A stretch of 64,000 nt of DNA from Antedon bifida (Eukaryota; Echinodermata; Crinoidea; Comatulida; Antedonidae), in contig OY727099.1 in the NCBI GenBank assembly GCA_963402885.1, positions 20,789,001 to 20,853,000 on the forward strand, written 5' to 3'. How positions within the stretch are numbered: position 1 is the stretch's first letter; the number at the start of each line of letters is the position of its first letter. A program made the translations under genes and the position numbers. This document shows positions 3,136-61,153 of the stretch, in pieces. The notes beneath the pieces are model-generated. The model was given only the letters and a program-made list of their open reading frames with translations. It was not told where the DNA came from and searched no databases.

Positions 3136-4729
3136 TATTTTGGTGGTTGCGTAGCGTATGCACACTATAATCCGTGGTTGACACATCAACGTTTCTCAGA
3201 TCCCAAATGATTCTGAACCCCTGATACTAACTACAAATACCCGTTATAGCATTTCAATAATTACAATAATAGATTCAACCAATAAAATATAAGCAAACAA
3301 ACAACAATAACAGGATTTTAAAAGACCTGGATATTAGGATATAATAATGGTTGCTTAATACAAAGGCGTGAAACATTTTGCTGATCCCTATGTCCATAAA
3401 TGGTTTCTTAACCTACCAAGATGGAAGTATAATAATGAATAAAATAAAATCACGCAATAGCAAGTATAAAGTTGCTGACTAATTAACTACAATACAGTAG
3501 AACATCCTTCCGTACACCTCTAATCAAATGACAGGACACTTTCCCTGACACTGAATTGAACAAGGGGAAATACAGCACTCTTGTAACATGTTGGCTAAGT
3601 CAAACAAACACACTTTTATCACTTTGTTGGGTATACAAATCTAAAATTGTCCACAATGTTCTAATGTAATATAATAATACATGTACTTTATTACCTCAAT
3701 ATCGTCAAACTAATAGGGCATATGTTGATACAATCAATGCAACAAATTTAACCCCTGCGTGTAGTTTATAATACAAGGAACGTCCTACAATAACACACGA
3801 AATATTTTGATCAAAAGGTTTGGTAGGGCCTATCGTTTCCTTTCATAGACACATACCAGTATATTCCAAGGTTAACTCTATCGTCACCGAAGAGTGGGAT
3901 TCTATTTCATGATTTTATACAAAAATGTTGAATAAAATGGAGGCAGAAGGAAAACAATATTTTAACAAAAATTAGGTGGTGCTACGTCTATCATACCTTT
4001 TACTGTAAATCTAAGACTAATACAAGACGATGCTACTCTCACCAAACCAACGCTAAATACACAATATCAAGGTGTTAATTTTTGCCCGTTATGATCCTTA
4101 ATCCCTCCACAAACTATGATTGATAACTAACTCGAGCCTTCACAAACTATAAGTAAGAATGAAAATGAGCAGGTTCTTAGTTTATTTCTTACATAATAAA
4201 ACTAAACAAACGAAAATCAAAAGGTGAAGATCTTAATGTTTTGTTAAGATCCTAATCCAGAAGATAATTTCTTTTTAAAAGAAAATTTAGACCTTGTTTA
4301 ACTGCTATAAAAGGCAATATTCGTGTATGTTGTGTCTGTGGGCCTCCTTTTACTGTTGAAGCTCATTTTTGCAGGGTATTATTTCTATTTCACTGATCAA
4401 TCACAGATATGACGTAGGCTTAGCTCTGTATTATTCAATCGGTATGCCTTTTGAAATACAATTATTTCATGCTTTCTGATTATGCTAGTATCGCCTAAAT
4501 AAATATTTCCATTACAGCTAGGCCGCCAGTTAAGAGTGCTTGTCACAACAAATCAGACATATTCGTAATTTAGTGGCAAGGGTCAACATTTCGAATTGGC
4601 TTATATTTTTCACATTGCTACCTTAATGTAAGGAAAACTGATGTGTAGTTTGTTCGGTAAAATATCGCTTAGTTCTCGATTTTTAGCCAAATTGTTGGTG
4701 TATAATTTACATTATTTTAATAACGTAGA

Positions 4730-46100: not shown

Positions 46101-49100
46101 ACTGGATCGAAAAAAAAAAATTCATTAATTGTTGATCTTTTCATTTAGTAATAGAAATTATGCAATTCAACAAATGAAATAGTTTCCAGTGCAAACATTC
46201 TCAAGTAACATGCCAAGAAGCAGATAACACCAACTTTTATGTTAATTTAATTATTAATTTATCTAATCTATAAAAAAGGAGACTTCTGTATTGTGGAAAA
46301 ATGTTGTTGAATAATAATAATAATAATAATATCATGGATTTATATAGCGCCTAATGTTGTGAAGCGCTGTACGAAAACTAATACGATAAAAGGGATTCCA
46401 ATCATGACAAAAAAAAAACCAAATCAAACTAAGGGGATACGCCTTTGTCGCTAACAAGGGATCGGTCTAATTGAACCCTAGTCAGCAGATGAATGTATCC
46501 AGAACTTAAAATTGGATGATGAGCAGGGGCAGATTCAAGGGGGACCCAGCCGGTCCCTACTGCCTGAATTTCCAAAATTGTAATGCAAAATATAGGACAT
46601 CAAATTAAGCTCAACCATTCATTTCACCATTTTTAGGCCCTGGGCCTCTCCTATTTCAAAATCCTGGATCCTCAATAAGTCCTAATGTTATCAGAATTAC
46701 AATCAACCAGGATGCAGTTGGGCCAACTTGATTGGAACCCTTTCAACCTATGCTTGCCTACAGTAGTATTATTTTCTCAATTGTATATTCTACTAAATTT
46801 CTTCAAGAAATGTTTCATTACAGTGCTGTATTGATTAATGATAGATGCCATACAGTAATCAATATTATTATTGCTAAAACATGCCTTTTATAGACCGCCA
46901 TGTCTACTATATTTCTTTCTTTTCTACCTTTTCATTGTCAAAACTATGGTTTAGTCTAGGATCACATTTTATCAATCACACTTAGCTAAGAAATAATTTT
47001 ATTTTAAGTGAATTATTTTGCTTAAGTCAGTTTTCAAAATAACATAAGCAAATATTTTTTTATGTATTTAAAAAAATATACTGTATATAAATCTTGATTT
47101 GAAGATTTGTTAGATAAAATAAAGCTTTAGTTTTTCGCTATCTTTACCTAGGCTAAAAATGTTAAGTTCTTTTTGTATATAGAAAGTAGAAAGCTCTGTC
47201 TACACTATCTAACTAGTTTGAGAAAAAAAGTATAATGCACCCAAATATGGTAGTGCATAACATCTCTATGGGCAGTGATATGCCCAAATATGGTAGTGAT
47301 ATCATGTCCATATATGTGTACATCACATTTTTTGTCACATAAAGTTTGATAGTGTATACAGATCTTTACATACAGTACAGTATGTGACAAAATGTGGTAT
47401 GAACATTGAAATGGTCATTCAATAAACCGTATGTACAATATAAATGAAGATATGATTAATGACAATGAAACAATCACAATGTACTAAAAATAGTTAACGA
47501 TGTCTTTTCTCTAAATGAGGCATGATTGTACTATTTTAATGACATCATTTGGGTACAGTATTTAAACAAATATATGTCCTAATAAAAAAATATTCATTAA
47601 TGTACTATTGTTGTATTCACTATATTCACTGATCAATCAATGATTTTTCCGCAAAAAAACTACAATCAGTGAATAATGGTTTCTCTCTAGTACTTAAAAA
47701 AACAGTAACTGTTATTTCTAGCTTTCTGTATATTAGCTGACAGCCTATGGATTGTGTATTCTAAAATGACAGCCTATGAATTTAGTATTCTAAAATGACA
47801 GCCTACTGTATGAATTGTGTATTCTAAAAACCTAATGAATAACTTGTTTGTTGACGTGCCAGGCTATTAACTAACATTCTCATTCTTCATGCAATACCTT
47901 GCAAACATTTTGTTTCTTGAGAACCCACAATGGGTTCATATATCCACCTTCTTCCTAAAAACATTAAAATTTGGTAATAAATTAAATATATTTATTTTTC
48001 ATTCCATATTTAGACAGCATACCAAGAAATGGAGAATCATATTGTGTAAAAATGAAGTAGTAAATCAGTTCACATGACATAGACACAAGCAACATCTCAT
48101 AACAATTTATTGGCCTATGAAATAGCAGATTTAACCTTCAACCTGTGGAAATCCATTTACAAGACAAACACACAAGATGCTCTCTCTGTTATTAAGAACA
48201 TTTTATGGATAAAATATCTTAATTTCCGCTTTTTAATCAAGTTTATTAAAAAAGGCATGGTTTTTACTAATTTACCTGACTTATTGATGTTTATAATAGA
48301 GTGTTATTAGCATAAAAATCTTGTTGCAAATAAAAAAATAGCATCGGCAATAGAGTTTGACTAAAGCTCTGTCTACACTATCACTAGTTTGACAAAAAAA
48401 GTGTTATGTGCCCAAATATGGTAGTGATATGACATCATCATATCCATATATGGGCACATCACATTTTTTTGTCACATAAAGTTTGATAGTGTAGACAAGG
48501 CTTTTAAGGCTTTATCTTCTTAAAAGAAGGTAAAGAACAAAAAAGCAACCTTTTAAACTTTCTTATGGAAGTACATTGTTGAATAGCCACAATCTCAGAA
48601 GCAGAAATGTGGGTGTAATGTATCAGTTTGTTTGAGATAGTTGACTTAGCTATACTACAACCATGCATAAATAAAATGTTTATAGAATAATATAATAAAA
48701 AAACAAAGAGTATAGGAAAGAGTAGAAATGTTGGCAAAAGGATTAAGTCTATTCAGAATATAACTTGTATAATAATTTATTGATTAATTGATAAATTTAT
48801 GCGATCAATTTCCAGTGCAGAGACGGCTTTGTAGATGTGCTTAATTATCTGTGGTCTACACCTGATTATCTGAACTGTATCTCCACATATGGCAGCCAGT
48901 ATCATAGGCAAACTCTGTAATACAGTGTCATATGTATCACATGTTACATCTGTATCACAGGCAAATTCTGTAATACAATGTCACATATGTATCTACATGT
49001 GGCACATGTATCATAGGCTATAAGCCTAACCGAACTTTATGGTTTACCAAGTTAAACTCATTTTTATTTGTTATTTTTAATTCCAAATTAACTGACATTA

Positions 49101-52100
49101 GAAGCCACTCGTAAAAAAAGCACCGACAAATTATATTCTGAATAGTCATTGAGAGAGTGCATGCACAGTGGGTTAATATATTATTTTCATTCCGCAATCA
49201 ACCAATCAAAGATGCCGTTGTCTAAATACTTACACCTTTGTTTGGTAGAGGTAGGGCAGGCACGCCCCTTGGTATTACGTTCTCCGTTTGTGTTACATTT
49301 ACATCAGGTACGTAGAAACCTCGACGATCTAGCAAGCTGCAAGACAAATTGAATTTTTTGTTCTATAAATGGATATGAAAAAAAGTCAGTTTTTCCGACC
49401 TAATTTAAGGTCACACACTACATTTTATATAAAAATAAATACTATATAGACTAATTGCAATATTTTTTTCATCTTTAAACGGTTAAAAATGTGAAAAATA
49501 AGTCGATTCTAATAATTTAAGCAGCCCGCTATGAATATCAGAATGCATCGCGCACGGATTGATATCTTCATATTGTGATGTGATGACTTCGATCAAACAC
49601 ACATTAAACGGTAAATAATAAAAGTGAAAATACCAGGTTTTCCCCAATTTTTATTAACAGATTCTGCCAACAAATGAAAGATAATTAATTCAGCTACAAG
49701 ACAACATCAAGCTAGGCCAATAGCTAGCATACAATGTTTGTATGTTACCGTTCTTTATCAGCTATGCCTACAAAACTAAGCCTTAACTAAGCTAGGCCTA
49801 AGACTGTCCACGCGAGGAGGTAGAGCATTGTTTCTCTCTTTTTTGTCATAATTAATCGTAAAACGTACAAAGAATGACCTGGTTTAATAAAGTTTTTGAA
49901 GTAATATATATGCATTATTTTTACAATACGTCAAAAATTGTAGGTTTAGTGTCTTCAATAATAATAATAATAGGGACCTTTAGTGTTAACATGGACACGG
50001 TTCACATCAACCTGTGATGTGTTCCCACCAAGTTGACTGCTCTTGTTGAAAAGTTTCAGATTTCACTCAACGGCCGGCCAGATGATGATTATTAGATGTG
50101 GAAATTATGAACGAGAGAATTCTACATATTAAATCTGATGAGAATGCTTGCTGAAAAAAAAAATCACTAGTTGTTCTGGGGTGGAAGCAAGAACCTCTGA
50201 ATACATGCTCTATTAGCTGCTGTTCACATAGGTAGCATTTCATTATACTAATTAGAAAACTAAACATACGACATTGAGTAATTAACTATCACGCTTCATT
50301 GCACACAACGAGACGCAAGTTTTGAATAGGCTTTGACTAGATCGCTTCTTTAAATTATTGATTATCATATGAAATGGATCGATCCAATTATTAGTTATAT
50401 TACATTATTTATAGGTTCTGACTGATATGTAATTACCAGAAAGTTATTTTTTCTAATATTCCGCTTGTCAGATGGGTTTAACATAGAGTCTGTTATGAAT
50501 ATTCAATGAGAAATGCAAACAGCAATTATTTTTAAATCTAATAACTTAAGGTGCCTTAAACACATTTGCTTGTGGGGAATAAATCAACCATTGGGTTGCA
50601 TTGATCAATTTCATGCAAATTGATAAGGATGTGTAATAGCAAATTTCGTTAATCCCTACATATTTCTTTGAACACTCCTAGATAATTTCTTTTTATATTA
50701 CTGTAATATATTACAAGGCGGACCCATTACATTTTATAAGCACATTTTACCGACAATTGACTTCAAAAGAAGGTGGCGAGTTAACATTGGAGAAGTACAC
50801 AAATTAAGTTAATGATATACAGTACGCGTAAAATATTATATAACTGTGGTGCTGTATGATTATTTGTATGCATGAATAATTTATAATTGGTTACATATAC
50901 ATCACATACAAAATATGTTTGTAATATAAGCTTGTATTTATTGTTAACTGTTGATGTAGATAGAACAGGATCAGCGTACTGTATGATGCACTTGCAATAG
51001 GCCATCATCGATGTATAGAAAGTATGCATGACTTTGCACAATTCTGAACGGCATAATTATATAACATACTGTACCAACTGATAACTAAACAGGGGCAGAT
51101 CCAGCATTATAGATTAGTGAGGCTAAATATTTCATAAATGATAAAAACAATCCGTCGGGTTGCAGAAAAATAAAGTCATTATTTTATATTAAAAAGACAT
51201 GGCTGTGAAAATTGAGGAGGTGGGGGGAAGGGAAGAATCGGGCTAATTTTTTTTTTTCAATCAATCACTTTTATTCACATGAATCGTACATATAAAAACA
51301 ATGATTTAAAAAAGAAAAGTAACATTTCAAAATTGAAAATAAAATATAAAAGTATATGAAACATGTGAAGGGGCAGTACTGTAAGCTTAAATAGCTTTAA
51401 GCGTACAGCCCATTGTAATAGTAAGAAACAATTGTACTGATTTAATTACAATCATCTTACCTAGGGTGCATGGGACCACAGAGCACAACACAACAATTGC
51501 TAAACGCATTTCCATGACTAAATGGATTGAAATTATCACGTTGCCGCTTTGTTGACCACGTTCCTTTAATCTACGAAAGATAAAACGGAAATAACTAAAT
51601 CAATGTATACAACTCTTCTGGACATAACTAAGAAATAATGAGAGGAAAAATAAGTTTCTAAAGCTCTGTCTACGCTATCAAATGTTATGTGACAAAACAA
51701 TTTGATGTGCCCATATATGGACATGATGATGTCATATCACTACCATATTTGGGTATATCACTACCATATTTGGGAACATCACACTTTGTTTGTTTAACTA
51801 GTTTGAAGTGTAGACAGAGCTTTACACTAATCCAACCAAGTTTTAGGGGACACTTTCTTAGGTCCTGAAGGTGTCCCCTTAGATTGATTAATTTGGCGGT
51901 GGGTTTTCTCTTGTAACAGTTTTCATGCAATGTTCTTTTCACCCATGACCCTATTTCATGAGTCATGCTTTGTGAATGACTGCCAGTATTTGGGTTGCAT
52001 GTTAAAGAGCCTGCATTACAAGAATTGGAGCATTTTTGTTGTAATAATTGGGACACTAACTGTTAATCTTGTATGACATGGCCTACAAAAATAAGGCCAC

Positions 52101-55100
52101 TGTAAATTTGCTTTGTTTGTATTTGTTTTATCGAGGACCATTAAAGATCAGTTCCTTCACTGAAACTTGATAGGCCATGTACCCTCAATAAATATGGTAT
52201 TAAATAAAATATAATTCCCTTAATTTATTTCAAAGGAAAGAGTCCCTTTAATAGGGATGTACCAAAGGAATTTAAACTGTATTGTTTGTAATTATCAGAG
52301 CAACTCTGATATTAGCCCACCAAGGGGAGTAAGATTCAGTTATTAGCCCAGTGACTCACTAGGTGACTAGGCTAGCCCAATTATAAAGCACAATTGATTT
52401 TTTGTTTTAATAAAATTATATATGGGCGAGAATAGGGATGTCCCAAATGAAGGGTTAAGCTTTATTTAATTATCAGAGCAACTCTGGTATTAGCCCACCA
52501 AGGGCAGTAAGATTCAGTTATTAGCTCGTTGACTCTATACACATTTAATAGGATTTAAATGGCATTGATGTTCACTTACATCTTCATTGGTTGTTTGACT
52601 TTTACACACAAGATACGTGTGGAAAGACGCTAAACCAAACACTGACCACACAGCGCCAAATGTTATTACTGCTTCTATCAAAGTGTTATGCCGTCAAGGA
52701 AAACAAGTTGAAATGGCATGCTTATTATTACACAAGAATCAATACAAATATTTCAACATTTAAAATAATGTTTCATGCTGAAGGAATTCAAAAAGGTTAC
52801 ATGATTTTCGTGAATACAATATATACTATAAATTACATGCTCAGTGATTACCAAGGTAGCCTTACATATCTGTTACAAGATCTTAATGATTTCTGAACAT
52901 AGTATATTAATTTACACTGGCAACCAAGGCAGCCTTACATATAGGTTACACGATTACAATACGATGTGGAAATGTCAATGCTATAAAATGCATGCATGCT
53001 ATTCCCAAGGCAGCCTTACCTATAGATTCCACAAATCAAATGATTTGCGAGTATATCATCACTGTAAAATACATGCCAGTGAAAGCTTTCCTTAGAGAAC
53101 ATGATAATTCACATCGATAAATTTTTATTGAATTACTTCACTGACTATTCTAAAGGCAGTCATGTAAATAGGTTTCATGAGAAAGATGGAATGCACTTGA
53201 GGTCTGTTTCTACTACATAGCATCGAATAAACCGTTTATTTCAAAATAGATTTAAAAAATAATGTTTATATCGACTGCATTTCTGCTCAATTTTTGCTCC
53301 TAAATAACCGTTTAAATCAGTAGGTGGTCGTTGATTAAATCGTTAGCATTTACCCAAAATGCAATGGGCTGTGGCGGTCAATTCAAACGTTACTATATTG
53401 TAGTTGACTCAACGTCAATGGTTGCCAATGAAATAATCATTATTTTGCATTGCAGCTAAAAGTAGCTCAGCAATAACCAGTTATATGGCGTTCTAACACC
53501 GAATCGATTGAGTGTGTTTAGCCGTTATTTTCAGGCTGCCATTTAACTAGTTACTAACTTGTTTCTGCTGCCAAGAAATTGGGGTTAATTTGTCCACACG
53601 GTTTTTAACCAGTTATTTATTTATGGAGCAGAAACAGGACCTTACTGTAAAACAAATAGCCATGCCTTTATTTTAAAGTAAAATTCTATATAGCTAAATT
53701 TTTCAATAATTGCAAATTACCATGTTCGTACAGGTAAAAAGAATATTATCAAACAACAAAGTAATTTAAGGTCAAATAAAAATAATGATAATAAAAAGGT
53801 ATTGTCAACATATAGAATGGATTTGAAACAGATTTTGGTATGAATTATGTTCATTGCAAAGAAAACGAGCATAAAGGCATTTAATACTAAAATAATTAAA
53901 TAACATAATATGAATTTTTTAAACTTAAAAGTATTGAATGTGATTTTCCACTGTTAAGGCCCTGTTCACACAGTCGTTGATCATGACCCCATAATTGTAG
54001 ATAATGTGAACTGACATTGACAACATTAGATTAGTTACCATGACACGACCTTAAACAAACAGTAGGAATGTCTATATAAACAACCTAGATGAATCGTGAC
54101 TTAGTAGAAGTAGTTTGTGTAAACACATGTGTAATGAATAGTGTACAAAGGACAGTGTTGCTATGTACTAACAGAATTGCCCTTTAAATATACAATATCA
54201 AATTATAGTGAAAAAAAACATATACAAACATATGTCCTTATCTCAAGGGTTCTTTCAACACAAATTTATATCATATTTTACTACAAGAACACCTCTATTA
54301 AGGTGTCATATGGGGAAAGTGTCCCTTTAATAGGGTGTATGTATTGCTGAAACATTTCCCCTTGTTTCATATGGGAAAAGTACTGTCTGTTTAATAGAGT
54401 TGTCTGTATTGCTGAAACATTTCCCCTTCTTTCATATAGGGAAAGTATCTCTTTAATAGGGGTGTCTGTATTGCTGAAACATTGTACCTTGTTTCATATG
54501 GGGAAATTGTCAACTTTAATAGGGTGTATGTATTGCTAAAAGAAACATTGCCCCTTACTTGATTCATGGGGAAAGTGTCCCCTTAATAGGGATGTCTGTA
54601 TTGCTGAAACATTGCTCCCTACTAATTTCATGGGGAAAATGTCTCTAATTATAATCAATAGGAGTTTCCCCTGAATAGGTATAGCAAAGGAGGAATTATT
54701 CTACATTATTTCCTAGATTCCTCCAGTGGATTGTGTGTGTGGCAACATCGACTTGATTCGATGGGAATTTTCTGAGCTTATGGTTTCCAATTTACTACTA
54801 TCATGCATAGAATCCAAATGATATTAATAAGTGTTAATAATGATGATGAGGTATTACTAATAACATCACCACTGAACACAATACAGAAAACAAATGCAAC
54901 TGTTGCTTAGCAACAAACGACATGCTTAGAGGGGGGAAGCGCACTCACATCTTCATTTGTTGTTTGATTGGAGGCAACAAGAAAAGTGTGGAAGCCGGCT
55001 AATCCTAACACCGACCACACAGATATAAAACAAATTATTGACTGGATAACGGTGATCATAAAGTCAAGGAATTCACAAAAAGTTTTTAGAAAAATCTACC

Positions 55101-58100
55101 AAAATATTTAGTTCACCAAATCAAGCAAACAAGGGAAGTTAAACAAAATAAAAGGTTTTTGTAAGGAAACTCAAATAAAATTCTATAAGAAACAAAAAGA
55201 TAAAATGAAAATTAGAAACAATAGTAAAAAATAAAATTGAAAGGGTGAACAAAAAGAAAAAAAAGATTACAATTATTTTACAAAATAACATTTTTATAGT
55301 AGGCTTGCATTAATGTATGTATCAATATCATATTTGACACAACAATAAAACTGAACACATAAAAATAGACCCTAAACATTTTTTTGCTATATTCATAGTA
55401 CACGCATGACATTGTATTATCAATTCAACTTTGTTTTAACAGGCCTTAAAATTCACAGACAGAGGTCAAGACATTTAACAAGAGCTGTTTTTGTTTTGTA
55501 GATTTTCACAAACATGATACCTGACACTATGTTAATGATATTTGACTTTGTTGAGTGGACCTTTTGACATTTATAGTAATAATAATACGCTATATTTTTA
55601 TTGATATTAATAAAGGATATCTTGCTGGTGTGTACTTAATAGCGTCTAAAAAACTGCCTTCATCCTGAGACCCTGAAATGAAAAAAAAAAAATTAATAAA
55701 TAAGTGATACCAAAGTAAAAAATATGACAATTTCCCCATACCTTCCTTTCCACCCTCCCCTATGTACCTCATTCTTCCCCCATCCCTATCTCAATTTTCC
55801 ATCCATATTTATGAACAATAACAGTAGAGAAAATCGGTCAAAATGAAACAAGAATAATTATACAGCACTGAATATGGTTTAAGAGTCACTAGTAGCTCTT
55901 AGAATGCTCATGGCATGTTCAAGTACAAAGCTAGGCTTAGGTTATAATACTTGAGATCAAACTCTAAAGCTTTGTTTACACTATCGACAAAATGTGATGA
56001 GCGCATGGACATGATGAGGCCCTTACAATCTCTTACAACCTTTTTCACAGAAACTATTTTAATAAAAAGTATATGATGGTACAGTAGTTGGACATTTAAT
56101 ACAGTATCAATTCTGATTTTTCTCATGTAAATTTAAAAATAACTTAAAAACACTGTACTTACTGAGAACCAGATGCGTGACATTGCAGGCGAAAACGAAA
56201 ATACTTAAAATTGTAGTAGATACTATGAAAAGATAAAAGAAGCGATAGTTTCTCTTGCCAACACAGTTGCCGACCCACGGACAGTGATGGTCAAAATTTT
56301 CTGTTGAATGAAAAAAAAAAGAGTGACAGAGAGTGCTTTTAAAATTGTCTGAGGATGTAAATACAATGCCTTGGTTACAATTTGAAAAGCACATTTTCAA
56401 ATACTGTATGTTAATACTACAGTACAGTAGAAGCCCTCTTTAGGCAAACCACTATTATAGGGAAACCACTATTCAAGGGACACCACTATTCAAGGGAACA
56501 CTTTCCAATAAAATAAATGAGGGTCTTCAACACTATGGCCAACTTATATCCAGGGAACCCTCTTATTAAGGGGACAATTAGTCCCAAAAGTGTCTCCTTA
56601 AAAGGCTTCTAATTTAACAGCTTTATACTGTAAGCAAGTCTTTGTGTAGAAATTATTGGGTACAGATATTCTAAATGTGCTTTATTGACTCACACGACTG
56701 GTATATACTGTCTGACTGAGTATACAGTCTTACTGAGTAAGCACATGCTTGAATATAATCCCACCTTAGAATTTACAGTATGCTAAATTGGATCCCACCC
56801 TTAATTTTCAACATTATCTTGTATCTAATTCTAATTGTGCTTATAAACATTGTAATTAGGCGCTATACTGTAAATAAAAGGCCAATTTACACAGACGAGC
56901 GGTAACAGTGATAAAAATATAGAATTTATGTTATTCCTTATGACCATTAACACACAATGCGTAAAGGCCAGGTGGTTTTTGCTAAGGATAACAGTAGATA
57001 TGTCAGATTCTCTGTGGGACAAGCTACAGGGTTTTCCGCTTACCATCAACGCTCGTCTGTGTAAATTGGCCTAAATTATTTTAGTATACACCTGTAGCAC
57101 CTACTGTACAATAATTAAAATGTATTATAAGCACTTAGATACAATTTACAAGATAAACGCTGAAAATTAAGGGATCAGTTTGTGTCCATTATCCTAAATT
57201 AGAGGGTGGGACGGAACCATAGGCTTGTACTTGGTCATGCAGTATACAGCAATCGATAGTATCCTTTAAGACATACACTACAGTAATATTGTATTTGAAA
57301 AACCCATTACAGTAAGTGAGGTAGCGTATGCATACTGTATATCCCATGTTGAATACTTGATGAATTAATTCATCATTCATCATTACGGATTAATTACGCA
57401 ATGCTTCTTCATGTTTACTGTTGCTTGACACAAATTAAATTGCACTTAAGAAGTTCATGATCAACGCTGCCGCAGGTTAAAAAAGGCGAATAATGATCAA
57501 GTCTGAATATCAAATTAGACTATCTGTGCATTCAAAATACACATCCTGACAGATCAGTATTATAAATGATATTGTATACATTTTGTTGACAAGCTTTAAG
57601 ATATATAATTATCCCCCTGAAAAAAAACCATTTTCACTTATCCACTTTGACAAAATTGGACAAACAAATTATTTAACCTGATAAAACTTACTGTAAGTAA
57701 TTTAAAGAAAAAGAAAAAAATACTTAAAGATGTATTAATTGTCCCTCAAAAACATGAAAATTGAAGATTTTGAATAGGCCATATTGTTTATTATTTAAAA
57801 AAGTTACTGTAATCACTTTCGTAAAAAAAACTCTTTTTCACTTATGACAAAATAAACGGTTAAATTCAACCAAAATCCCATTGGCTGGCAGTCAATTTGA
57901 CTATTTTGTTGCGTTAAATTACAGTTTTTTCGGGTAAATAATTTTTTTTATTCAAATTTTGGTCAAATGACATATTCAACCAAAAAAATGTTTAAAAGTT
58001 ATTTATTTTAGAATTTATTTCTACAGAATCGCCTAATTTATATTAAAAGTTTGATTTTAATAAGGACGACACATTTTTAAATTATAGTGAGGTTAACACA

Positions 58101-61100
58101 GTAGAACCTCTATTAAGGGACTCTGAATAGAGGTTGCCTAGTGTTAAAATATATATTTTTCCTCATTCAAAGGAAAAGTCCTCTGAATTAGTAAGGGGTT
58201 GCCCAAAGGAGGGGTTCTACTATAATTCAGTATTTATAATTAAACCATTAGTTTAAAAAATCATCTCTGGAGATTGTAATTAGTTATTTCTTTCTAAATC
58301 GATAAATATTTATGCATACACACACTGTACAGGGTATACTGATTATTAAATATAATTTTTTATCAGTGTAGTAATCAAGGATGTGCTGAAATCACTGTAT
58401 AAAAATAATACATTTGAATTTTTAAAAAAAGGGAAGAGGTCGTGGTTGTTATGGAGCTGTGGATGAAAAAATTAATATTAAATAATTAGTAATATAGTAT
58501 TTTGTGTTACATTGTCAAGGATTACAATATACTAATTAACACTTCGACCAAAATATACAGTACTAGTACTGTACAAAAGGTTTATTGCAAATAATTGATT
58601 TTACAAGGAATGTCATTGCGCAATGCATGATGGGAAGAGTTTGGGAGCAATAGTGCCACTGTATAATAAAACTTTATATAAGTGGTGATAGTGATATTGC
58701 TCCCAAATCCTTAGCCAACATGCATTTGCTAACGTTATTTGCGATAAACCTTATTACAATGATACTGTATACAACATGTTATTTGTCATTCAAACACCCA
58801 AGCAAAATGTACAGTACCTCAGTTATTTAAAATAGAAATATTAATTAAAATCGTACTTTACATACCTACACAATTGTCACATAAACTGCAATGTGATGAC
58901 CGCGGCGGTCTGAATATTTTACAAGTGAAACAGTATTTTAGCTTAATGTTTTGACCGTTTATTACAACTTCTTTAAATCGAGAAGGCGGACGATACGTTC
59001 CTGTTTGTTGCGTCTGTGCCTCTGTAAATAAAATATTGTAATAATGCAAACAGTAATTTAATATTTTAAATGTAATAATTGCAAATTTAGTGCACTGTAC
59101 AATTAACATGGAGGAAATATAGTATACAGTAGTTAATAAATAAATCTATATATTTCCTCCATGACATAAGTAAGTTTTTAACACTGTATAGTAGTACGAG
59201 ACATTATATGGCAACAACACAAAATATTTCATTCAATTAATGCATAAAGTATGAGTATTATTTACAATAATATTTCCTATATTATCGATAACAATTAATA
59301 ATTTATAAAACGTAATTACTGTAAGTGTAAGTAATTACTTCTATTTGCATGTGATGTACAGTATAAGTTTTTTTATAATGTGAATGTGTACTACTGTAAG
59401 CAACCTGTCTGCTGTCTACGGTACATGGTCTTCAATACCGAAGTCTTATGTGTAGGACAAAACGAAAACTAAATTCTTTTGTTGCAACCAGTTCCAAATA
59501 AATTTGCTCATGGGTCATATACTGTAGTATTAAGAATTATGAATTTTGTAGATTTAAGACGTTACGTATGTGATTTGTGTATTTTTTAATTAATTATTAA
59601 TATGTATTTTTGAAATGTATTTTTCAGTCCTTGATGAAATTGCCCTACACGGGATGGATGAATAAAGAAATTGAAATTGAAAATACCCCACCATTCCGTA
59701 TGTTTACAGTTTAACAAAAGATAAAGTGTATTTCATGTAAGTTTTTGTTCGTCCATTATGCAAACTCAATTCAATTATTCTATACAGTAATAGGCTGGTT
59801 AAGTAAAACAGTATGCTGATCAGTTTAATAAGTTTAATCATGCAATCACAGAATGTAATTGCAAGATTACACCTATCAAAACTGATTACATAAACTGTTT
59901 ATAAATAGTAATTCATTTAGTTTAAATACAATTTGATAAAATGATTAATCAACAGTCTGCAAATTGCTTTCAGTAAACTGTACCAGGCAAGAATTTCTAA
60001 CATTGTTAAATAATAATCTGATATGTTGTGTAATACAATATTAATGAAACTAAAGCTCACTGGATCCTAATGAGTTAATACTATCAATTAACAGGTACAC
60101 AGCAAGAAACCGTATTGGAATTTAACATGAGTCAGCAAAGACGATAATTAAAGGTTTCATTATATAAAGGAAATCGTTAATGAGTTTAGTATGTCTTTGT
60201 GTTAGTTAACAAAATGTCAGGACAGACTTAATTAGAGGTTTGTCTCACAAGAATAAATTCTATACTTTTCATTGTAAAGCGAAATTAAAAGTACACTAAA
60301 TAATACAGACTTACAAATTCTTGAAATTCTTTTAAAAGCTTACTGTACAGTACATGATCAAAATGGAATTACTGTACAGTTAAAAGTGGAAACCATGGGA
60401 AATGGAGCCATTTTGTTTTGAGTAGTTTTAAGTTGTTTTCTAATTGTATAATGTTTTTAATGTGTTGGTGGTGGAAAAACAAGTTATCTTACAAAATGTA
60501 CAAATTAGCATTACTGTATGCAGCAATAAAGAAATTGATAGAAAGAAAAAACAAAGTTTAATAAAGTATACAATTGTACCTATTTGCCTCTCGGTTGCTG
60601 CTTCTTCTTCGGCGCTTGCCCTCGGTATAACCCCTGGATCACTAAAGCTAGTCCGAAGCAGTGTGGAGATAACAAATACAAACAACAGAACACCGATGAC
60701 TGGAATGGCTTCGGAAACCCTTTTCCAGAGGTAAACACAACTGTAAAAAGAACAAACACAATAATGTAATGATAATAAATTATACAAATAATTAATATTA
60801 ATAACTTAATATAATATACTTTATATACGGTAATAAATTGTTGAAAAAACTTACTCAAATGCAAAGAAAAGTCCAGACGTAACAACAATAAGACCAAGTG
60901 TTAAATAAAAAATTCCTTTTTGACGTGCCATCATAATCCGGCCATCACAATAAAAATGGTTTCGTCCAGGAAACACTTCCCACTTTCGCTTAGGCATTTC
61001 CAACGAAATGTAATTTGTACTTTTAGGGTCAGAAACCTGTGTAGTGGGTAGTTGACAGGCTAGGGCCTCTGCGGTCTTCTCTACCGCGATCTGCTGCTGT

Positions 61101-61153
61101 GATGGGTGCGTCGTCGAACCGTTGCTCGCACCACTTTCCTGCCCTACATTCAT
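42856..61153 (-). CDS. ZDHHC14: Palmitoyltransferase ZDHHC14-like gene, ten coding exons (two alternative)
   Basis: Membrane S-acyltransferase that moves palmitate from its own DHHC cysteine to cysteines of target proteins, usually at Golgi or endosomal membranes (family knowledge). Coding exons (minus): 61153-60855, 60740-60580, 59021-58866, 56300-56163, 55672-55621, 55051-54949 or 52682-52580, 51570-51461, 49336-49236, 43118-42856. All phases match and give 460 residues; human ZDHHC14 is 488. Hallmarks in order: [22 protein letters not shown]1, TM2, DPG motif ([10 protein letters not shown]), the Cys-rich [19 protein letters not shown], catalytic [21 protein letters not shown]3, TM4, TTxE motif (QTTNED), then [13 protein letters not shown]. 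The N-terminal box and the head-to-head TMEM242 neighbour favour ZDHHC14 over ZDHHC9/18. Introns carry several MITEs. Confidence 0.92.
44621..44787. mobile_element. MITE family V (GTCCAGTATCATA ends)
   Basis: Ends GTCCAGTATCATAGGCAAAT and ATTTGCATATGATACTGGAC form a nearly perfect inverted repeat of about 30 bp. The interior is rich in GTATCACA / TGTGATAC. 167 bp, non-coding. Confidence 0.8.
45057..45368. mobile_element. MITE family W (TTGTCCCCC ends)
   Basis: TATATTGTCCCCCCAAAAA at the left and TTTTTGGGGGACAATAC at the right. The interior holds long A/T runs, GCCCTTTTACTGTCACATAG and TAACCGTTT. Related partial copies lie at 46012-46130 and 57600-58080. Confidence 0.75.
45977..46006. repeat. 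Stray hairpin CAGGGGAGAGTG/CACTCTTCCCTG
   Basis: A 12-bp arm hairpin closely resembling the one in the 2.2-kb module but outside any module copy. Confidence 0.6.
46012..46130. mobile_element. Partial MITE family W
   Basis: ATTGTCCCTTAAACAATTTA, a T-run, GCCATTTTAATGTCACATAG and AAACTGGATCGAAAAAAAA match the left half of 45057-45368. Confidence 0.65.
46305..46500. repeat. (AAT)n followed by TTTATATAGCGCC-type dispersed repeat
   Basis: An AAT trinucleotide run precedes GGATTTATATAGCGCC and GAAGCGCTGTACG, an arrangement common as dispersed repeat in marine invertebrate genomes (from memory). Family not named. Confidence 0.45.
47191..47367. mobile_element. MITE family T, copy 3
   Basis: AAGCTCTGTCTACACTATCT at the left and GATAGTGTATACAGATCTTT at the right. 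The interior CCCAAATATGGTAGTG block is duplicated, so the copy is longer (177 bp). Confidence 0.85.
47744..47836. repeat. Tandem ~31-bp repeat (three units)
   Basis: GACAGCCTATG(A/G)ATT followed by GTATTCTAAAAT, three times. Confidence 0.85.
48364..48505. mobile_element. MITE family T, copy 4
   Basis: AAGCTCTGTCTACACTATCA ... TTTGATAGTGTAGACAAGGC, with the CCCAAATATGGTAGTGATAT interior in the orientation opposite to copy 1. Confidence 0.85.
48896..49016. mobile_element. MITE family V, second copy
   Basis: CCAGTATCATAGGCAAACTC and a repeated ATCACAGGCAAATTCTGTAA, then GTATCATAGGC. The copy is rearranged relative to 44621-44787. Confidence 0.6.
49236..49336 (-). CDS. ZDHHC14: ZDHHC14 exon 8
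   Basis: Acceptor TTTGTCTTGCAG|CTTGCT. Encodes [20 protein letters not shown] and [12 protein letters not shown]. Two overlapping donors are possible, AAAG|GTGTAAG and AAAGGT|GTAAGT. The first gives phase 1, which fits exon 9. Confidence 0.85.
49337..51460 (-). other. ZDHHC14 intron 7
   Basis: AT-rich; no exon or strong repeat recognised. Confidence 0.6.
51461..51570 (-). CDS. ZDHHC14: ZDHHC14 exon 7
   Basis: Acceptor TATCTTTCGTAG|ATTAAA, donor CACCCTAG|GTAAGA, phase 0 to 2. Encodes [20 protein letters not shown] with [16 protein letters not shown], the conserved post-TM4 segment (NP-S-GN, NCC, LCGP). Confidence 0.92.
51661..51822. mobile_element. MITE family T, copy 5
   Basis: AAGCTCTGTCTACGCTATCA ... 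GAAGTGTAGACAGAGCTT, with an internal duplication CACTACCATATTTGGG(T/A)A. Confidence 0.85.
52230..52545. repeat. Duplicated ~180-bp segment
   Basis: ATTATCAGAGCAACTCTG, TATTAGCCCACCAAGGG and AGTAAGATTCAGTTATTAG occur in both halves (from 52295 and from 52470). Confidence 0.8.
52580..52682 (-). CDS. ZDHHC14: ZDHHC14 exon 6b (alternative TM4 + TTxE)
   Basis: 103 nt from AACAC|TTTGATAG to GAAGAT|GTAAGT. Encodes, after the split Ser, [20 protein letters not shown] with [14 protein letters not shown]. The LIEAV stretch is closer to human VLEAV than exon 6a is; the C-K-S in place of A-S-N before QTT and the helix residues differ. Confidence 0.88.
52683..52701 (-). promoter_or_regulatory. U12 branch site and AC acceptor of exon 6b
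   Basis: Branch sequence TTCCTTGAC (52701-52693), branch A at 52694, 11 nt before the AC at 52684-52683. Identical nine-base branch site to exon 6a. Confidence 0.88.
52848..53090. repeat. Tandem ~80-bp repeat (CCAAGGCAGCCTTACATA)
   Basis: ACCAAGGTAGCCTTACATAT, ACCAAGGCAGCCTTACATAT and CCCAAGGCAGCCTTACCTAT at about 52850, 52924 and 53008, plus a weaker fourth unit. Plus-strand frames here arise from the repeat. Confidence 0.75.
53200..53644. mobile_element. ~445-bp MITE with GGTC(C/T)TGTTTCT ends
   Basis: Left end AGGTCTGTTTCTACT, right end AGCAGAAACAGGACCT; the interior has AACCGTTTA / AACCAGTTA repeats. It lies between exons 6a and 6b. Confidence 0.65.
54286..54650. repeat. Tandem 62-68-bp repeat (about six units)
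   Basis: TGTATTGCTGAAACATT recurs at about 54340, 54405, 54467, 54529 and 54597, with TTTCATATGGGGAAAGTGTC between. It sits about 300 bp downstream (in transcription) of exon 6a. Confidence 0.85.
54949..55051 (-). CDS. ZDHHC14: ZDHHC14 exon 6a (alternative TM4 + TTxE)
   Basis: 103 nt from ATCAC|CGTTATCC to GAAGAT|GTGAGT (phase 2 to 0). Encodes, after the split Ser, [20 protein letters not shown] with [14 protein letters not shown]. Same length and phases as exon 6b, to which it is paralogous. Confidence 0.88.
55052..55071 (-). promoter_or_regulatory. U12 branch site and AC acceptor of exon 6a
   Basis: Branch sequence TTCCTTGAC (55071-55063), branch A at 55064, 12 nt before the terminal AC at 55053-55052. 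There is no polypyrimidine tract, as usual for U12 introns. Confidence 0.88.
55611..55620 (-). promoter_or_regulatory. U12-type AT-AC 5' splice site
   Basis: The first ten intron bases are ATATCCTTTA. ATATCCTT is the minor-spliceosome donor consensus for AT-AC introns, matched at all eight positions. Confidence 0.88.
55621..55672 (-). CDS. ZDHHC14: ZDHHC14 exon 5, followed by a U12-type AT-AC donor
   Basis: 52-nt exon, acceptor TTCATTTCAG|GGTCTC. Encodes [16 protein letters not shown], then two bases (AG) of a split Ser codon. No GT donor fits the phase; the exon ends CCAGCAAG|ATATCCTT. Confidence 0.85.
55972..56026. mobile_element. Half copy of MITE family T
   Basis: AAAGCTTTGTTTACACTATC, then GCATGGACATGATGA, without the right half. 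Confidence 0.6.
56163..56300 (-). CDS. ZDHHC14: ZDHHC14 exon 4 (catalytic DHHC and TM3)
   Basis: Acceptor TTCATTCAACAG|AAAATT, donor TTCTCA|GTAAGT, phase 1 to 1. Encodes [20 protein letters not shown] with the catalytic Cys, then TM3 ([20 protein letters not shown]). The residue before FDHHC is Asn, where human ZDHHC14/18 have Arg. Confidence 0.93.
56430..56625. mobile_element. Pogo-like MITE remnant (CAGTAGAAGCCCTCTT end)
   Basis: Begins TACAGTAGAAGCCCTCTTTA, followed by CTATTCAAGGGA-type repeats and CTTATTAAGGGGAC. CAGTAGAACC ends are typical of pogo/Tigger-group elements. Related sequence lies at 51829-51880, 58090-58230 and 63385-63515. Confidence 0.55.
56835..57075. repeat. Inverted repeat around 56878-57074
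   Basis: AGGCCAATTTACACAGACGA at 56879 and CGTCTGTGTAAATTGGCCT at 57053 are inverted copies; internal ACGAGCGG / AACGCTCG also pair. A MITE of about 195 bp. Confidence 0.75.
57600..58080. mobile_element. MITE family W remnants
   Basis: ATTATCCCCCTGAAAAAAAA and ATTGTCCCTCAAAAACATGA starts, TTCACTTATGACAAAATAAA and AACGGTTAAATTCAACC interior; two damaged copies. Confidence 0.5.
58090..58230. mobile_element. Pogo-like MITE with inverted ends
   Basis: CAGTAGAACCTCTATTAAGG at the left and GGAGGGGTTCTACTATA at the right, about 135 bp, non-coding. Confidence 0.65.
58640..58707. mobile_element. 68-bp palindromic element
   Basis: TTTGGGAGCAATA (58640-58652) pairs perfectly with TATTGCTCCCAAA (58695-58707), and the next bases (GTGCCACT / AGTGATAG) pair imperfectly. 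Confidence 0.7.
58866..59021 (-). CDS. ZDHHC14: ZDHHC14 exon 3 (Cys-rich domain, zinc sites)
   Basis: Acceptor TTTATTTACAG|AGGCAC, donor TGTGTAG|GTATGT, phase 1 to 1. Encodes [39 protein letters not shown] and CDNCV, the first zinc-binding Cys and His residues of the DHHC Cys-rich domain. Confidence 0.93.
59390..59680 (+). mobile_element. LINE 3'-end fragment
   Basis: The stretch ends GGGATGGATGAATAAAGAAA followed by TTGAAATTGAAA, the kind of short-repeat tail seen on CR1/L2-like LINEs. No ORF remains. Confidence 0.55.
60580..60740 (-). CDS. ZDHHC14: ZDHHC14 exon 2 (TM2 and DPG motif)
   Basis: Acceptor CTTTTTACAG|TTGTG, donor AAATAG|GTACAA, phase 2 to 1. Encodes [16 protein letters not shown]2 ([14 protein letters not shown]) and [13 protein letters not shown], with the conserved Asp-Pro-Gly. 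Confidence 0.92.
60855..61153 (-). CDS. ZDHHC14: ZDHHC14 exon 1
   Basis: Starts at ATG 61153 and ends TTTGA|GTAAGT (phase 2). Encodes a polar N-terminal tail rich in Ser, Gln and Thr, the [20 protein letters not shown] box specific to the ZDHHC9/14/18 group, and TM1 ([20 protein letters not shown]). Confidence 0.92.

Follow-up and report, generated by a model that had tools for sequence, protein, structure and literature searches.

Candidate mutually exclusive exons with U12-type acceptors and U2-type donors in a palmitoyltransferase gene of Antedon bifida

When a gene carries two versions of one exon in tandem, how is it ensured that each message receives one of them, and not both or neither? 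The question is raised by a gene on the minus strand of a stretch of 64,000 nucleotides from the crinoid Antedon bifida (GCA_963402885.1, contig OY727099.1, positions 20,789,001 to 20,853,000), referred to here as the window, whose numbering is used throughout. The gene encodes a palmitoyltransferase of the ZDHHC9/14/18 type and contains two versions of exon 6, here called 6a (54949..55051) and 6b (52580..52682). Both are 103 nt long, and both encode the fourth transmembrane helix (TM4) and the TTxE motif. The arrangement of splice sites and the reading frame suggest, with a probability that we put at about 0.82, that 6a and 6b are mutually exclusive through incompatibility of U2 and U12 splice sites, reinforced by the frame, and that two isoforms result. 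Few exclusive exons that are kept apart by spliceosome incompatibility have been well described.

Splice signals and reading frame around exons 6a and 6b

Exon 5 (55621..55672), which encodes the loop before TM4, was delimited by reading and splicing the sequence. It follows a U2 AG acceptor and ends in ...CCAGCAAG at 55621, after which ATATCCTTTA, a U12-type 5' splice site (55611..55620), can be read directly. In a motif scan, the U12 branch site TTCCTTGAC is found before each version of exon 6, at 55063..55071 for 6a and at 52693..52701 for 6b. The branch A lies 12 nt (6a) and 11 nt (6b) before the end of an intron that closes in AC, and both distances fall inside the optimum of 11-13 nt for U12 branch sites (PMC3584512). 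Exons 6a and 6b, placed by splicing and by comparison with each other, end in ordinary U2 donors, GTGAGT and GTAAGT respectively, and the intron before exon 7, which starts at 51570, closes with ...CTTTCGTAG, a U2 AG acceptor. The combination of the ATATCCTT donor, the TTCCTTRAC branch site and 11-13 nt to AC marks a U12-type AT-AC intron, as classed by the consensus letters of donor and branch site.

How unusual are these signals? TTCCTTRAC occurs just twice on the two strands of the window, and the two occurrences are the branch sites of 6a and 6b. Shuffled sequence contains a mean of 1.17 such sites, and two or more were present in 28 of 100 shuffles. A pair of chance sites would thus be unremarkable; what is unusual is that one stands immediately before each of the duplicate exons. 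For a single exon, the motif would fall within the preceding 13 positions with a chance of about 1e-4; for both exons the chance is about 1e-8 if the sites are taken as independent, which duplicated copies are not. The donor 8-mer ATATCCTT is unremarkable by itself (2 found, 4.52 expected). A genome-wide pattern of this donor with the branch site 10-40 bases after it had 0 matches (the control pattern, read backwards, had 1 forward and 1 reverse), but such a gap is too short for the introns of this gene and the result is uninformative. At the 6b acceptor, AC occurs twice, with ends 9 and 11 nt past the branch A, and only the second is in frame. The last 30 intron bases include 20 pyrimidines before 6a and 19 before 6b, to which the branch site itself contributes.

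The genome contains loci for the small nuclear RNAs of the minor spliceosome, namely U11, U12, U4atac and U6atac, all of which score above the Rfam cut-offs. The U12 locus scores 124.2 bits, U4atac 96.9 bits and U6atac 136.6 bits. The U12 RNA contains GTAAGGAA (on the reverse strand of L022), which pairs with TTCCTTGAC given a bulged G. U11 is present at two loci, C10:10010369-10010497 (88.6 bits) and C13:13162309-13162439 (85.6 bits), whereas U12, U4atac and U6atac have a single reported locus apiece; scoring was confined to the best candidates.

Each of the two exons therefore has a U12 acceptor and a U2 donor, and the intron of 2,266 nt between them is a hybrid. A join of exon 5 to exon 7 would be the reverse hybrid, with a U12 donor and a U2 acceptor. 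Sites of the two classes are described as generally incompatible, and the combinations AT-AG and GT-AC appear to be disfavoured (PMC3584512). In each transcript, the U12 donor of exon 5 would be joined to the U12 acceptor of either 6a or 6b, and the U2 donor of the chosen exon to exon 7. Joining 6a to 6b would be barred as a U2 GT donor meets a U12 AC acceptor, and joining exon 5 to exon 7 as a U12 donor meets a U2 acceptor.

The frame acts in the same direction. The length of 103 nt is 1 mod 3, not a multiple of three, and therefore skipping both exons or including both ends in a premature stop. When the wrong joins were spliced in a script, the message that passes from exon 5 to exon 7 reached its stop in exon 8 (49234..49336; LLDRRGF..., AG/GT, placed by splicing), and the one with both 6a and 6b stopped within 6b. 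Products of leaky splicing would thus be out of frame, and degraded or truncated. A further path, from exon 4 to exon 7, is compatible as U2 to U2; here the codon formed across the junction is followed at once by a stop.

A preliminary description of this DNA had reported the AT-AC donor of exon 5, the equal length and phase of 6a and 6b, the exact branch sites 12 and 11 nt before AC, and the GT donors and AG acceptor that lead to exon 7. All of these are borne out base by base at their coordinates on the minus strand. Its account of exclusion by U12/U2 logic also agrees with the sequence tests as far as the tandem TM4 exons, their U12 acceptors and their U2 donors are concerned, but it missed the frame lock. 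Its further statement that the splice logic alone yields exactly two isoforms was too strong, given the compatible path from exon 4 to exon 7.

Could the frame be the primary cause of exclusion, and the incompatibility of the sites incidental? In such a scheme, double inclusion and double skipping would take place, and the products would then be lost to nonsense-mediated decay. Both wrong products do have early stops, and in 377 (60%) of the human clusters of exclusive exons there are exons whose length is not divisible by three (PMC5740500). The same source gives 20 validated cases with incompatible frames among orthologous genes, 18 of which have reads that join both exons. However, both wrong joins in the Antedon gene also require hybrid U2-U12 splicing of an intron that ends in AC or starts with AT, the kind of pairing that appears to be disfavoured. 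We regard a primary role of the frame as unlikely.

A different question is what selects 6a or 6b in a given transcript. The U12 signals of the two exons are nearly equal, and a chooser is still needed. Competing intron RNA structures or a repressor, which act in other clusters of exclusive exons, might set both the choice and the exclusion, with the U12 sites incidental. There is precedent in the use of Nova for the choice of JNK exons (PMC8329584), and a TGCATG is found in the 200 nt downstream of 6a. This hexamer, however, occurs 10 times over 46500-61141, and YCAY elements number 3-6 in each 200-nt flank of 6a and 6b, within the 5-95% range of 1-7 over the same region. Nova-like YCAY and TGCATG elements around the two exons are thus not above the background of the gene (46500-61141). 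The single inverted-repeat pair reported in 51500-55700, with arms of at least 18 nt, has both arms between 6b and exon 7. Exclusion by structure or repressor is very improbable on these counts.

The two versions of exon 6

In the chain numbering of ZDHHC9, exon 6 covers residues 226-259, that is, TM4, assigned by its place, and the TTxE motif. Exons 6a and 6b are identical at 69 of 103 nt and at 21 of 34 amino acids, and are thus tandem homologous exons of equal phase. The region from exon 5 to exon 7 contains no further copy. The substitutions are distributed as 10, 7 and 16 over codon positions 1, 2 and 3. Estimates of nonsynonymous (dN) and synonymous (dS) divergence come from 34 codons only, and dS (1.0-2.1, depending on the method) is close to saturation or beyond it: dN is 0.30, dS 1.08 and dN/dS 0.28 with NG86; 0.34, 1.00 and 0.34 with LWL85; and 0.29, 2.06 and 0.14 with maximum likelihood. 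When 33 random substitutions were placed on 6a in 100,000 simulated trials, at least 21 of 34 residues were kept without a stop in 0.029% of them. Both exons therefore look kept by selection, and the duplication is probably not recent, because dS is near saturation.

The 13 differing positions all lie in TM4 and in the stretch just before QTTNED. In TM4, for example, Ile is replaced by Gly and Ser by Ala; other changes are Gly to Ser and, just before QTTNED, Ala-Ser-Asn to Cys-Lys-Ser. In zDHHC20, four membrane helices form the acyl cavity, the residues that line it set the choice of chain length, and TTxE touches the DHHC domain (PMC8059564).

One of the exons, most likely 6b, might be a duplicate that has fallen silent or is decaying, and that is spliced rarely if at all. 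Relative to ZDHHC9, 6b is the more diverged of the two, with 19 of 34 identical residues against 24 of 34 for 6a. Nevertheless, its branch site, acceptor, donor, phase and frame have all been kept, and its divergence from 6a has taken place at a dN/dS of 0.14-0.34, depending on the method. A silent 6b is consequently quite improbable.

In the preferred reading, an ancestral exon of 103 nt encoding TM4 and TTxE would have been situated between an upstream U12-type AT-AC intron and a downstream U2-type intron. Its duplication in tandem, together with the U12 branch site and AC acceptor on one side and the U2 donor on the other, would have created the present arrangement, and the gene would yield two isoforms of the palmitoyltransferase, unlike each other at 13 of the 34 positions. 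Splicing of both exons, their mutual exclusion in cells, their origin by this route and a functional difference between the isoforms, either at the acyl pocket or in a partner, are inferences from the sequence.

Besides the shortness and saturation of the exon alignment, several points weigh against exclusive splicing of two functional exons. Firstly, incompatibility of the two classes of site is leaky in other genes, for example MAPK12 (PMC8329584; see also PMC10853781). Secondly, reads join both exons in 18 human clusters with incompatible frames, although these are not said to be U12 (PMC5740500). Thirdly, the greater divergence of 6b from ZDHHC9 leaves a small probability that it is degrading or of minor use. 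Fourthly, the residues that PMC8059564 names for chain length are situated in TM1 and TM3, not in TM4. Finally, the evidence for either junction comes from the DNA of one genome.

It is tempting to speculate further that the locus is a switch, the mirror image of known ones in that the acceptors are U12 AC sites and the donors U2 sites, and that it is doubly locked by spliceosome class and frame. By swapping TM4 of the palmitoyltransferase it might alter the acyl pocket through the changes of Ile to Gly and of Ser to Ala, both in TM4, through Gly to Ser and through a Lys beside TTxE, and the minor spliceosome, in its AT-AC branch, might be needed for the entire output of the enzyme. As a whole, this extended proposal is doubtful and is put forward only tentatively.

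Known exclusive exons and the JNK gene of the same genome

Is this type of exclusion new? Exclusive exons through U2/U12 incompatibility make up 5 (0.79%) of 629 human clusters (PMC5740500), and for this class both PMC5740500 and PMC6865273 cite Letunic 2002. The mechanism is thus already described, and the Antedon gene would be a further case in another gene. It would belong to the same mechanism class as the five human clusters, among which there may be a case with the same polarity.

The closest parallels are JNK and TMEM87. In MAPK8 and MAPK9, the JNK exons 6a/6b (7a/7b) likewise have one U2 and one U12 site each and a hybrid intron between them (PMC3584512, PMC8329584). In JNK both acceptors are U2-type and both donors U12-type (PMC8329584), whereas the Antedon exons have U12 AC acceptors and U2 donors; the gene and the part of the protein also differ. 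In TMEM87A and TMEM87B, the exclusive exons 11 and 11a are similarly arranged around a minor intron (PMC6717393). Both exons of Tmem87b are 72 bp long, no reads join them, and reverse-transcription PCR confirmed the 11a isoform in cortex (PMC6717393). The polarity of TMEM87A/B is that of JNK (PMC8329584) and opposite to that of the Antedon gene; that system is backed by RNA, while the Antedon exons are known from DNA. The opposite polarity holds with respect to JNK and TMEM87A/B as these sources describe them, and no claim is made that it is unprecedented.

Within the protein family, approximated (app) of Drosophila is a palmitoyltransferase homologous to yeast Erf2 and to mammalian ZDHHC8, 14 and 18 (PMC13104975). 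Its four DHHC-containing isoforms vary in their C-terminal tails, with App(1-349) representing the common regions, and the available text of that source describes no swap of TM4. The preliminary description knew of no account of U12 or exclusive exons in this family. A literature search at the level of titles and the beginnings of abstracts, which covered few subscription journals, found none for ZDHHC9/14/18 among the papers listed.

If the exclusion of 6a and 6b is real, the opposite polarity and the frame lock would suggest that such a pair can originate simply by duplicating an exon that lies between a U12 and a U2 intron. The locus would then be a clean system for measuring how strict U2/U12 incompatibility is. 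It would also provide a palmitoyltransferase in two membrane-helix versions, possibly with a different choice of fatty acid or partner.

The JNK gene of the Antedon genome served as a positive control. It has a U12-type donor, GTATCCTTTT, after the exon that ends in ...LFPGTD (GEMIRGAVLFPGTD; position 4182 of the reverse complement of L036). Vertebrate JNK genes have a minor intron at the same place. A tblastn search of a 9-kb stretch found one copy of the ...GEMIRGAVLFPGTD exon and no second one.

The same JNK gene contains two tandem exons of 125 nt in the same phase, KQARDLLCKMLVVDP... and NHVRDLLSKMLVIDP..., which are separated by a GT-AG intron of 44 nt (L036, C11:17057412-17057705, minus strand) and are possibly a steric-hindrance exclusive pair. 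The exclusive pair of vertebrate JNK genes is situated in another part of the protein.

Steric hindrance, in which splice sites are too close to be used together, is a described mechanism that accounts for 57 clusters (9%) in PMC5740500, and the JNK exons 44 nt apart suggest an example in this very genome. For 6a and 6b it was considered and rejected: the 2,266 nt from the donor of 6a to the acceptor of 6b are not too short an intron to splice, and we give this explanation practically no credence.

Gene identity, exon layout and repeats

To which palmitoyltransferase does the gene correspond? The isoforms with 6a and 6b score 130.0 and 130.7 bits against PF01529 (Pfam DHHC), and the DHHC, DPG and TTxE motifs are present in the spliced frame, as in members of the subfamily. 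The best solved match of the 6b isoform is ZDHHC9 (8hf3, E 5.7e-125), with ZDHHC5 reaching only 1e-50, and a 178-residue piece of the 6a isoform again matches ZDHHC9 best (E 5.7e-81). ZDHHC9 is the sole member of ZDHHC9/14/18 among the solved chains matched.

Across the genome, the DHHC family had at least 21 exon matches. When the 178-residue stretch was aligned to these 21 loci, 20 gave hits, of which two, at 100%, are in this gene, and the closest locus outside it has 62% identity over 29-42 residues. A 95-residue probe covering exons 5 to 8 had four matches in the whole genome, all within this gene and one of them weak (E 2.7); no other copy of the region was found outside it. A single gene of this type was thus found in the genome, and the gene is therefore named as ZDHHC9/14/18-type. 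The preliminary label of ZDHHC14 was right as to this type but too precise, given the one such gene and the best solved match to ZDHHC9. The gene is likely a co-orthologue.

The gene model covers exons 1-8. In scripted splicing, exons 2-8 form a single open frame with 6a as well as with 6b, of the same length in both cases, and exon 1 joins exon 2 in frame. Every intron of this model has GT-AG ends apart from the intron that follows exon 5; it starts with ATATCCTTTA and ends in AC before both 6a and 6b. The coding part of exon 1 (60855..61153) has a candidate start MNVGQES..., counted by hand, and includes TM1 and a GT donor; it matches ZDHHC9 from KWE..PGRN, and its 5' limit is uncertain. The next three exons, and exon 7, were placed by the spliced frame and the match to ZDHHC9. 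Exon 2 (60580..60740) contains TM2 and the DPG motif, and exon 3 (58866..59021) the first half of the cysteine-rich domain, both with AG/GT borders. Exon 4 (56163..56300) contains the DHHC motif and TM3 between a U2 AG acceptor and a GT donor. Exon 7 (51461..51570; IKGTW... NPFSHG) likewise has a U2 AG acceptor and a GT donor, and is taken as the PaCCT region, named by position.

Rfam noncoding RNAs had no match at the gathering score in the window. The intron between 6b and exon 7 contains a short element of about 166 nt (51659-51824) whose ends, TAAAGCTCTGTCTAC.../...GTAGACAGAGCTTTA, are inverted and which looks like a small miniature inverted-repeat transposable element. One of its end sequences recurs twice downstream of exon 8, at 47190 and 48363. 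In the intron between 6a and 6b, at 54303-54640, a unit of near 62-68 nt is present in tandem about five times, and its copies have diverged.

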